DNA of 64,000 nucleotides from Synechococcus sp. ROS8604 (GTDB lineage Bacteria > Cyanobacteriota > Cyanobacteriia > PCC-6307 > Cyanobiaceae). The stretch lies in NCBI RefSeq assembly GCF_014279655.1, contig NZ_CP047946.1, forward strand, positions 1,612,001 through 1,676,000. Reading direction: 5' to 3'. The notes beneath the pieces are model-generated. The model did not search any database, was not told where the DNA came from, and saw only the letters and a list, made by a program, of their open reading frames with translations. The position numbers were made by a program, and so were the translations under genes. Shown piece after piece: positions 25,526-29,046 of the stretch; the first letter of the stretch is position 1; the number at the start of each line of letters is the position of its first letter.

Positions 25526-25771
25526 TCATACCTGCGTGGAGTCCTGAAGCAAAATCTGAAGCTTCTCCAGAATGTTGTCTCGCACTTCCGGATCTCCCAC
25601 CAAACTCAATTCTCCAGTGAGAGGCCACCAGTTCAGCTTGAGATTGCTGACGCCGTCGTCAAAGAGAGCAAGCTCATAGGCACCTTTATGTTGCCAATGA
25701 CATGGAACGCCCAATTGCGCGACCAACGCCTGCAACTCCTCCAAAGTCCCTTGAAAATCCATCGAAAACAT
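25526..25771 (-). CDS. Small conserved hypothetical protein
   Basis: An 81-residue soluble protein: MFSMDFQGTLEELQALVAQL, then CHWQHKGAYELALFDDGVSNLKLNWWPLTGEL and SLVGDPEVRDNILEKLQILL. The pattern helix, beta-meander, helix resembles small proteins of marine Synechococcus with an NWWP-TG motif; the role is unknown. ATG at 25771 (or 25762) is taken because the longer upstream part is hydrophobic, AT-rich and unlike the rest. It is divergent from the EF-hand/arginase unit. Confidence 0.6.
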   Translation of the reverse strand: MFSMDFQGTLEELQALVAQLGVPCHWQHKGAYELALFDDGVSNLKLNWWPLTGELSLVGDPEVRDNILEKLQILLQDSTQV

Positions 25772-25938: not shown

Positions 25939-26184
25939 GTGTCAATAATCCCTCTCGAAAACGAGCTTTCCTCTCTCTTCTCCCTCTTTGAAGTAAACGG
26001 CGATGGAGCTATCACTCCCACCGAGGTGAATCAAGTGCTCACCTCAATGGCGGGAATCATCGCTGAACAGGAAGCCAAGGCCCTTCGCCAGTTCATGGAT
26101 AGCCCAAGTGACGTCAGCCGAGAAGACTTTCTGAGCTGGGCAAGCAAGCAGCCTGGGCTGGGCTGGGAACCCATCAGTTGTTGA
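25939..26184 (+). CDS. EF-hand protein, probably the 5' part of the arginase gene
   Basis: An 81-residue stretch holding one good EF-hand (LFEVNGDGAITPTEV) and one degenerate one (FMDSPSDVSREDFLSW). In calmodulin-like domains EF-hands come in pairs, and the next two lie at the start of the following frame. It ends ...GWEPISC* at 26184, overlapping the TTG-started arginase frame by seven bases in another register. No Shine-Dalgarno sequence or ATG begins the next frame. This may therefore be the N-terminus of one four-EF-hand arginase interrupted by a one-base loss, or a separate coupled gene. The start is uncertain: GTG at 25939, or TTG at 25894. Confidence 0.6.
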   Translation: MSIIPLENELSSLFSLFEVNGDGAITPTEVNQVLTSMAGIIAEQEAKALRQFMDSPSDVSREDFLSWASKQPGLGWEPISC

Positions 26185-27461
26185 GAGATCTGTTTCAGCT
26201 TGTCGATACAGATGGGAGCGGCTGGCTCAGTCACGACGAGCTTTCGTTGATAGTGTCTCTGCTGGGCACACCAGAAGCATCCATCGATTCCCAGGAGTTG
26301 CTGGAGAGGCTTGATCGCGATGGGAACGGACGGATCCGCGTTGATGAGTTTTTAACCCTGCTGGAAGACCACAACCGCCTCAATTGCTCCCTTGCAGACC
26401 TCAAACGCTTAAAGAAAAGCCTGGTGCAGATCAGCAGCACGGCTGGGCTGAGTGGAGTCAGTCTTGTGGAGGTGGACTGTGACCTGGGAGCGGGGAAACC
26501 CGGCGCAGGTTCAGGCATTGAAATGTTCAAAAGTGCTGTCAAACACCAGCAAGATCTCCAAAAAATGAGCGCAGGCTTGATCGCCGAGATTCGAGAGGGA
26601 AAAACACCATCGGCCCATGCCGCTACCACAGGAAAAAGCACCACACCCCACGCTCGTCACATCAAAACCATCGCTGGCGTGATGCAGGACGCAGCGAATT
26701 TGGTATGCAGCACGCTTCAGCAGCAGAGCTCCCCAATCGTCCTTGCGGGAGACCACTCCACCGCCGCCTCAACCATTGCAGGGATCCGTCGTGCCCATCC
26801 ACAGTCGCGGCTTGGGGTGATCTGGATCGATGCCCACGCTGATATTCATTCCCCCTTCACGACCCCTTCGGGGAATATGCATGGGATGCCCTTGGCGATC
26901 GCCTGCGGGCACGACAATCTTTCAGAGGCGATCAATGATCCAGAGCCTGTCACCCGACAACTCTGGAAGGATCTGCAGCAACTGCACGGTTTCGAATCTG
27001 CAGCGATCGACTTCCGTGATCTGATTTATGTCGGCGTCAGAGACACCGAGGCCGCTGAGGATGTCACCTTGGCCAGCCACTCCATACCAGTGATCAGCAC
27101 CGAGCAGGTCAGACGTAAGGGAGCCATTCAAGCTGCCAATCACTGCCTCTCCTGCCTCTCCCACCTCGCCGACGTGGACCTGATTGATGTGACCTTCGAT
27201 GTGGATGCGATGGACTCAACCATCTGCAAAGGCACAGGCACCCCCGTTCCTGGGGGGCTCTGGGCGCACGAGGCCATTCTCCTGCTCCGCCCGCTTCTCT
27301 CCGATCCCAGGGTCTGCTGCTGGGAAATTTGTGAAATCAATCCCTACCTCGATGAACTGAACACCCTGGCGGAACTCTCTTTGGGAATCTTCCGGGCTGG
27401 GCTTGAGGTTCTTGGAGAGCGGTTCAGCTCACCCTCTTCATCCTCATCCCATGCAAGCTGA
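26178..27461 (+). CDS. EF-hand arginase/agmatinase-family ureohydrolase
   Basis: A 427-residue ureohydrolase with an N-terminal EF-hand pair (VDTDGSGWLSHDEL and LDRDGNGRIRVDEF). The binuclear-metal site is complete: AGDHST, WIDAHADIH and VTFDVDAMDSTI, followed by CKGTGTPVPGGL. These enzymes release urea from arginine, agmatine or guanidino compounds; TGTPVPGG is arginase-like, but the substrate is not proven. EF-hands suggest calcium control. The frame opens only with TTG and without a ribosome site, so it may depend on the preceding frame. It overlaps the urea transporter gene by 11 bases, linking urea production with transport. Confidence 0.85.
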   Translation: MLRDLFQLVDTDGSGWLSHDELSLIVSLLGTPEASIDSQELLERLDRDGNGRIRVDEFLTLLEDHNRLNCSLADLKRLKKSLVQISSTAGLSGVSLVEVDCDLGAGKPGAGSGIEMFKSAVKHQQDLQKMSAGLIAEIREGKTPSAHAATTGKSTTPHARHIKTIAGVMQDAANLVCSTLQQQSSPIVLAGDHSTAASTIAGIRRAHPQSRLGVIWIDAHADIHSPFTTPSGNMHGMPLAIACGHDNLSEAINDPEPVTRQLWKDLQQLHGFESAAIDFRDLIYVGVRDTEAAEDVTLASHSIPVISTEQVRRKGAIQAANHCLSCLSHLADVDLIDVTFDVDAMDSTICKGTGTPVPGGLWAHEAILLLRPLLSDPRVCCWEICEINPYLDELNTLAELSLGIFRAGLEVLGERFSSPSSSSSHAS

Positions 27462-29046
27462 CGCCCCTTCGGTGTACGAGCTTCTGCAAGCTCTCCTACC
27501 GCCGCCGCCCGCGCCTTTAGGACGAAAGGGGTTATTTGCTGAACAGCATTTCCGGGCGGGGCCCTGGGAAAGCGGTCTACGCAGCTTTTCCCAAGTGATT
27601 TTTATCAACCATCCCCTCAGTGGTGGCCTGCTGCTGCTGGCCTTTCTGATCCAGTCACCTTGGATGGCTCTCTTGGCTGTCTTGGGGATGGCTGCAGCAA
27701 ACGCCGTTTCCAAGCTGCTGAATCTTGGCCAAAGCCTGCGCGATCAGGGAATCCACGGCTTCAACGGTGCCCTTGTGGGATGCGCCGCGGCAGTTGTAGC
27801 TGACTCCAGATCCGTGGTAGATACCGGGCTGATCGCAGTGTTCGTAGCGTTCGGAGGCGGACTCACAACGCTGATACTCGAACTGTGGCGACGCCTCTTT
27901 CATCTCCGCGGAGACCCGCCGGCGCTCACCCTGCCGTTCTGCCTGATCACCTGGGGACTGGTGGCCTTGGTGAGCCCTCAAATGCCAGACAGCATCGAGA
28001 CGGTGAAAGCGGCGGCTTCGCCTGGCTCAGTTCAGGCATTGGCTTTCGGCCTTCCCCACAGCTTCGGACAGGTGTTTCTCTGTTCCGACCTGGTCAGCGG
28101 ATGGCTCGTTCTCCTGGCAGTTGCGGTCGCAAGCCCCATCGCCGCCGCGCTCGGAGCGTGTGGCGCCCTGATGGGAATGATCACCGCCTTGGCAAGCGGA
28201 GCTGACAGCGCTGCTGTAGCCCAGGGGTTATGGGGTTACAACGGCGTTTTGGTGGCGATCGCCCTTGGCGGAATCTTCCACGTGCCCGGACGCAGAACCC
28301 TGGTCATGGCTCTCATCGGAGCCGGGTTTGCCAGCCTTGTACAGGGTCTACAGGGGAGGTTGATGGGCAGCCTGCCAGCGCTCACTCTGAGCTTCGTGCT
28401 CACAACCTGGATGCTGCAGCGTCTGGCTGGCCGAACCCTGCCGGCACTGATTCCTGTGGCCCTGCATGCCGTTGTTAGCCCTGAGGAACACCGCAAACGG
28501 TTTCTGGTGGCGAGTGAATTGTTAGGAAGCTTCCGCCGCAACTTGCGACAGAGGCTGGACGGCATGGCCCCCAACGCTGGGGGGGAACAGACTCAAAGCG
28601 AGCTGAACAGCGAGATACAAGCTCTTTTTGATGAGCTCGACCTGAACCGTGATGGCCAGCTCAGCCTTGAGGAGCTACGCCATGCGCTGTTGTCAGGCGG
28701 GACGAGCAAGCAAAGCCATCAGCGCCGAACCTCATCCCTCAACGATCAACTAACGGCAACGATGGCGTCGATGGATCTCAACGGTGATGGCCACATCGAC
28801 TCCGCTGAATTCAGCCAGCTCATCCAACGCTTGCAACGACTCCGGCAGGGAGAAGAACGGCTGCTGCTGTACTTAATGCCCGTTGATGCCAATGGCAATG
28901 ATCGTCTCGATCAAGAGGAATTAACGCGTCTCCTGCAAAGCATCGGCCAACCACCCCTAAGCGCCGGGGAACAAGCGTTGGTGTTCCCAAACCAGCAGAA
29001 AAGTCTTAGCTGGCACGATTTCGTGGATCGCTTGTTGTTGAGCTAA
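27451..29046 (+). CDS. Urea transporter (UT/SLC14 type) with C-terminal EF-hands
   Basis: A 531-residue protein. Residues about 1-345 are a urea-transporter channel domain with two related halves (INHPLSGGLLLLAFLIQSP, GIHGFNGALVGCAAA and, later, GLWGYNGVLVAIALGG). About 395 to the end is a calmodulin-like region with three good EF-hand loops (DLNRDGQLSLEE, DLNGDGHIDSAE, DANGNDRLDQEE) and one degenerate loop. It should move urea passively across the membrane, with calcium modulating the flow. The ATG at 27451 lies inside the arginase gene, so the two are translationally linked. The EF-hand fusion is rare for this family, as far as I know. Confidence 0.88.
   Translation: MQADAPSVYELLQALLPPPPAPLGRKGLFAEQHFRAGPWESGLRSFSQVIFINHPLSGGLLLLAFLIQSPWMALLAVLGMAAANAVSKLLNLGQSLRDQGIHGFNGALVGCAAAVVADSRSVVDTGLIAVFVAFGGGLTTLILELWRRLFHLRGDPPALTLPFCLITWGLVALVSPQMPDSIETVKAAASPGSVQALAFGLPHSFGQVFLCSDLVSGWLVLLAVAVASPIAAALGACGALMGMITALASGADSAAVAQGLWGYNGVLVAIALGGIFHVPGRRTLVMALIGAGFASLVQGLQGRLMGSLPALTLSFVLTTWMLQRLAGRTLPALIPVALHAVVSPEEHRKRFLVASELLGSFRRNLRQRLDGMAPNAGGEQTQSELNSEIQALFDELDLNRDGQLSLEELRHALLSGGTSKQSHQRRTSSLNDQLTATMASMDLNGDGHIDSAEFSQLIQRLQRLRQGEERLLLYLMPVDANGNDRLDQEELTRLLQSIGQPPLSAGEQALVFPNQQKSLSWHDFVDRLLLS

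Follow-up and report, generated by a model that had tools for sequence, protein, structure and literature searches.

Arginases (EC 3.5.3.1; PF00491, TIGR01229) such as RocF and human ARG1 hydrolyse L-arginine to ornithine and urea. Two of their sites, Asn130 and Asp183, recognise this substrate by its carboxyl and amino groups (PMC9224512). GdmH (Synechocystis Sll1077), a guanidine hydrolase that releases urea and has Thr97 and Trp305 as its specificity residues, belongs to the same ureohydrolase superfamily and has no reported EF-hands. Substrates of cyanobacterial ureohydrolases are extremely difficult to assign by sequence (PMC2242806). Among urea transporters, a survey found none in cyanobacteria except those of the ABC type (PMC10392092). 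Calmodulin-like EF-hand fusions of bacteria have also been surveyed, with cyanobacterial examples joined to an enzyme or a membrane domain, and the main text of that survey mentions neither urea nor arginase (PMC7016017). A search of open-access full text, which is weak evidence of absence, returned no published account of a system of EF-hand arginase and urea transporter in cyanobacteria.

Picocyanobacteria are abundant marine phototrophs. We describe a conserved two-gene cassette of these organisms in which an arginase-clade ureohydrolase and a predicted UT/SLC14-type urea channel, both with EF-hand modules of the kind covered by the fusion survey, are paired beyond chance. The families are known and their arrangement is new; in the genome analysed here the enzyme side is broken. 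Our best reading, to which we give even chances, is that a guanidino-compound hydrolase that senses calcium is paired with a passive urea channel that calcium regulates.

Gene content of the locus

The window, i.e. the whole stretch of 64,000 nucleotides that was analysed, lies in a complete cyanobacterial genome of 2.88 Mb. The features of the locus are listed in Table 1.

Table 1. Positions of the genes and sequence features of the locus within the window.
Feature	Position	Strand	Remarks
78-aa 'LNWWP' protein	25529..25762	-	Transcribed away from the enzyme gene; ten-row alignment
Enzyme, split-off first part	25939..26184	+	GTG start at 25939, stop TGA at 26182-26184; corresponds to residues 1-75 in the unbroken enzyme (500 aa) of a relative
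EF-hand 1 of the enzyme first part	25990-26025	+	Loop EVNGDGAITPTE; a degenerate EF-hand 2 also lies in the first part
(CTGGG)x3	26153..26167	+	5-bp tandem duplication that breaks the frame; x2 in G030 and G013 (DNA alignment)
Enzyme, main part	26178..27461	+	Two canonical EF-hands and arginase-clade ureohydrolase domain
EF loops of the enzyme main part	26205-26240, 26313-26348	+	
Ureohydrolase domain	26457-27365	+	
Overlap of enzyme end and channel start	27451..27461	+	11 bp; identical in G030, G029 and G004
UT/SLC14-type urea channel (predicted)	27451..29046	+	Intact; start ATG at 27451; UT domain 27571-28416; C-terminal calmodulin-like tail
EF loops of the channel tail	28639-28674, 28774-28809, 28885-28920	+	Three canonical loops, then a degenerate fourth

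The protein encoded at the end of the locus is a predicted UT-type urea channel. It matches PF03253 with an E-value of 1.2e-64 (218.8 bits against a Pfam cut-off of 25), while its score with the bacterial Yut model TIGR03441 is well below the cut-off. Aligned with human UT-A2 and UT-B, it keeps the repeated pore motifs SQV..N.P.SG, TLPF, GQV/I, GLW.YN and TLSF. Its nearest solved structures are the human, bovine, zebrafish and Desulfovibrio urea transporters, and the best structural matches of its AlphaFold model are solved urea transporters, followed by calmodulins and calmodulin-like kinase domains. The channel thus shares its UT domain, its fold and its pore motifs with dvUT, bovine and human UT-B and human UT-A, and differs from them in that its C-terminus is extended by about 150 residues, which form a calmodulin-like EF-hand tail (PF00036/PF13499, E about 1e-14). 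The first-pass annotation, which had read this gene as a UT/SLC14-type transporter ending in calmodulin-like EF-hands, is borne out, as is the 11-base overlap that it gave for the two genes. Among 400 sampled Cyanobiaceae genomes, 41 match the UT-type channel model, some as fragments, and the intact channels carry calmodulin-like tails; these matches disagree with the survey in which the ABC type was the sole kind of urea transporter found in cyanobacteria (PMC10392092).

The enzyme matches the arginase domain PF00491 (E=3.7e-44) and, ahead of it, the EF-hand model PF13499, with E=3e-10 for the pair adjoining the catalytic domain; the match of the first EF-hand (E=3.5e-4) does not reach the Pfam cut-off. 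These domains are the ones assigned by the first-pass annotation, which had placed them in a single frame from 25939; that frame ends at the stop at 26182-26184.

The 78-aa LNWWP protein has no Pfam or NCBIfam match. It is present in 35 of 41 genomes with the EF-tailed UT channel and in two of 39 others, counts in which kinship is ignored. It is possibly a third member of the locus. Copies of its gene include L045:7259-7492 and L047:11000-11239, among others, and in several genomes the gene adjoins PhnD/PhnE-like ABC-transporter genes instead.

Substrate of the ureohydrolase

All six metal ligands of arginases are kept in the enzyme (His101, Asp124, His126, Asp128, Asp232 and Asp234, in the motifs AGDHS, DAHAD and FDVD), as are the equivalents of the catalytic His141 and Glu277. 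Loop A has the same length as in arginases, and the closest solved structures, both by sequence and by fold of the model, are arginases. The enzyme thus shares fold, metal ligands, catalytic His and Glu and loop A length with RocF and human ARG1, and differs from them in its N-terminal calmodulin-like module, in the substitutions Asn130 to His and Asp183 to Glu, and in a sub-cut-off arginase score. GdmH is of a different clade and much less similar: the best arginase match reaches 141.5 bits, versus 56.7 bits for 7esr/7oi1, where the alignment covers a short stretch only. We call the enzyme an arginase-clade ureohydrolase; it should act on a guanidino compound, either arginine or a close relative.

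To the alternative that it is not an arginase proper and hydrolyses another guanidino compound we give even chances. In every clade sequence read at these sites, EF-bearing or not, Asn130 is replaced by His and Asp183 by Glu (rat/human numbering, by alignment); the canonical arginases encoded within the same phylum retain Asn and Asp. The set that recognises the carboxylate and amino groups of arginine (Asn130, Ser137, Asn139, Asp181 and Asp183) is therefore incomplete clade-wide at 130 and 183, with Asp181 kept, and the substrate need not be arginine. With the NCBIfam arginase model TIGR01229 the window enzyme scores 178.2 bits, under the cut-off of 227.6, and a guanidine-hydrolase-like cluster that includes nickel chaperones is found near the gene pair of G004. 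Against a non-arginine substrate stand the arginase-length loop A, the retention of Ser137 (Thr in G383) and Asn139 in the clade, and the position of arginases as nearest relatives by sequence and fold. Human arginase N130Y, altered in a loop of kept length, is a further counter-argument, as it still accepts arginine only (PMC9224512). The TIGR01229 score far exceeds the enzyme's scores with the NCBIfam agmatinase and formimidoylglutamase models. The arginase-family label of the first-pass annotation holds for the domain (PF00491), while the name arginase is not established, since Asn130 and Asp183 differ. The cluster in G004 (L047:561-5506), close to the enzyme-channel pair, consists of a ureohydrolase gene together with hypA, hypB and SsuA-like ABC-transporter genes.

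Pairing of enzyme and channel across genomes

Profile searches of the 400 Cyanobiaceae genomes recovered the enzyme in 25, and 24 of these also carry the EF-tailed UT channel (41 of 400, fragments included). The sole enzyme genome without a channel match, G395, is 64% complete. Co-occurrence within the family is highly significant (one-sided Fisher p=1.6e-26, shared ancestry ignored). The order enzyme to channel on one strand is the rule, with the two genes overlapping by 11 bp at one extreme and standing a few hundred bases apart at the other, and the flanking genes vary. Close relatives of the window have glutamine synthetase there, G029, G004 and G026 have a mutY-like gene, and another genus has ABC-transporter genes. 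Because the Fisher test ignores shared ancestry, these changing neighbourhoods are the better argument for the pairing. Protein distances of enzyme and channel correlate with r=0.89 over 22 genomes, a value for which shared descent alone could suffice. Chance neighbours are rejected by the co-occurrence together with the conserved order. The earlier proposal that the two genes belong together, with homologues that never occur together as its counter-case, is thus well supported: enzyme and UT gene are nearly always adjacent, amid differing flanks.

The dependence is one-sided, and we give slightly less than even chances to a system centred on the channel, which would serve urease or other sources of urea, the enzyme being one optional source among several. 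About 17 of the 41 channel genomes have no enzyme, which argues for a role of the channel on its own. In three genomes the enzyme has been lost and the channel frame is still open: fragments of the enzyme remain in G020, part of it is deleted in G127 and it is broken in G248. The G020 channel stays constrained, with 31 synonymous against 16 non-synonymous changes. Urease occurs in most channel-bearing genomes; of 58 genomes tested, 49 have it, the window's among them. In the deep-branching family f28, outside the Cyanobiaceae, and the related UBA8803, the gene beside the channel is not that of the enzyme; a nucleoside hydrolase gene is close by in three of four cases (L126, L201 and L204, one confirmed by Pfam and the others assigned by likeness), and other urea sources may therefore be served. 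What speaks against a mainly channel-centred system is that the enzyme almost never occurs without the channel and that the pair stays adjacent amid different neighbours. Three genomes of family f28 in the phylum-wide sample have the EF-tailed channel; one of them, G598, also has the EF-bearing enzyme, and its two proteins, with three EF loops each, are encoded on different contigs.

EF-hand modules and proposed calcium control

Both proteins carry paired EF-hands with canonical 12-residue loops, as judged from Pfam models and from the loops of at least 30 homologues; since models and conservation agree, chance motifs are rejected. Two or three canonical loops are present in the tails of nearly all intact channels across divergent species, and three in most enzymes. 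The AlphaFold models (mean pLDDT 71 and 65, i.e. of limited confidence) show four helix-loop-helix units in each module, one of which is a degenerate EF-hand in the enzyme and one in the channel. The EF-hands that the first-pass annotation had seen in both proteins are therefore a trait of the family, from which three Cyanobiaceae members of the enzyme clade (G035, G374 and G366) depart, as does G720 outside the family, in having no EF loops. On the enzyme tree, EF status requires at least 3-4 changes; a single gain as the sole change is thus rejected, and one gain with several losses is compatible with the tree.

The modules might be purely structural, with permanently bound calcium or magnesium stabilising, oligomerising or anchoring the two proteins and no regulatory role. 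The degenerate EF-hand of each module fits this explanation, as does Glu in place of Asp at position 1 of EF loop 1 in the enzymes of the window and G004, and the enzymes of G035, G374 and G366 seem otherwise intact without the module. We nevertheless think it rather unlikely, since nearly all channels keep two or three canonical calmodulin-like loops across divergent species and the modules sit at opposite ends of two partner proteins, which suggests a shared signal.

A calcium-sensing hydrolase paired with a calcium-regulated channel would work as follows. A cytosolic arginase-clade ureohydrolase would release urea from arginine or a closely related guanidino compound, and the passive UT-type channel would carry the second calmodulin-like module as a cytosolic C-terminal tail. 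Both modules would sense an increase in cytosolic calcium, and in response the production of urea and its flux would go up or down together. Here we infer calcium binding, calcium control, the cytosolic location of the modules, the substrate and the direction of urea flow; gating of enzyme and channel by calcium is deduced from their sequences. A role for such a gate is suggested by the urea context. UrtABCDE, an active high-affinity ABC importer, also handles urea and is unrelated in sequence to the channel; a UrtA-type match was found in 50 of 51 genomes tested, including the window's, and UrtA is present in the same genomes as the channel. As most such cells have Urt and urease, an always-open channel would leak pumped urea and waste energy, and gating would keep the channel from leaking the urea brought in by Urt. 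That cytosolic calcium acts as a joint switch for an enzyme that frees urea from a guanidino compound and for a passive channel, the latter a previously undescribed calcium-regulated channel of the SLC14 type, is a tentative proposal that we hold with distinctly less than even confidence. If the tail does gate the channel, the system would exemplify, in bacteria, the control of nitrogen flux by calcium; it would also offer a natural setting in which to study SLC14 gating and provide a concrete target for calcium signalling in picocyanobacteria. The NtcA box is the usual nitrogen-control signal; upstream of the enzyme, NtcA boxes were not found above chance (1 versus 1.5 expected).

Reading-frame break in the window

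In G030, G013, G029, G004 and G009 the enzyme, EF-hand 1 included, is a single protein of 500-502 aa. In the window its frame is split because of a 5-bp tandem duplication, (CTGGG)x3 in place of x2, and one continuous frame is rejected, as the frame from GTG 25939 ends at TGA 26184. The first possible start of the second frame, TTG 26178, overlaps the stop of the first. The frameshifted gene may be inactive, or its product may be made from the internal start without EF-hand 1.

On the window branch (compared with G030, with G013 as outgroup) the main frame has 21 non-synonymous and 30 synonymous changes, a rate ratio of about 0.2. Marked relaxation of selection is not seen in this frame, and a ratio so far from neutral indicates that the break is recent or that the remainder still works; we suggest that the frameshift may be recent. 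The lack of a clear loss of constraint and the possible TTG restart at the stop would also suit an assembly or sequencing error, or a break that is bypassed so that the enzyme is made in full. We consider this improbable. The 5-bp tandem duplication has the form typical of slippage and not of a single-base error, and inspection by eye of the region near the stop of the first frame revealed no canonical slippery heptamer for programmed frameshifting. Five changes in the window enzyme hit positions that are invariant in five other sequences; the G030 branch has no such change. The window enzyme also has three residues inserted in frame just ahead of the metal-binding FDVD strand.

Further UT-type sequences

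A UT domain followed by a long C-terminal region is encoded in two further cyanobacterial genomes, each about 6 Mb in size (L050:3912-6077 and L051:7543-9708); in L050 this region matches peptidase family M23. The UT frame of G083 (L155:6307-8784) has about 275 extra N-terminal residues of odd composition, which may be a mere upstream open frame and not a fusion. In G009 a second UT copy is present in part (L170). A second, decayed trace of the locus is found in the window's own genome (L169), where a copy of the 78-aa gene with an inner stop (G000:C1:131018-131236) lies about 2.5 kb from a fragment of a UT EF-hand tail (133778-134080).
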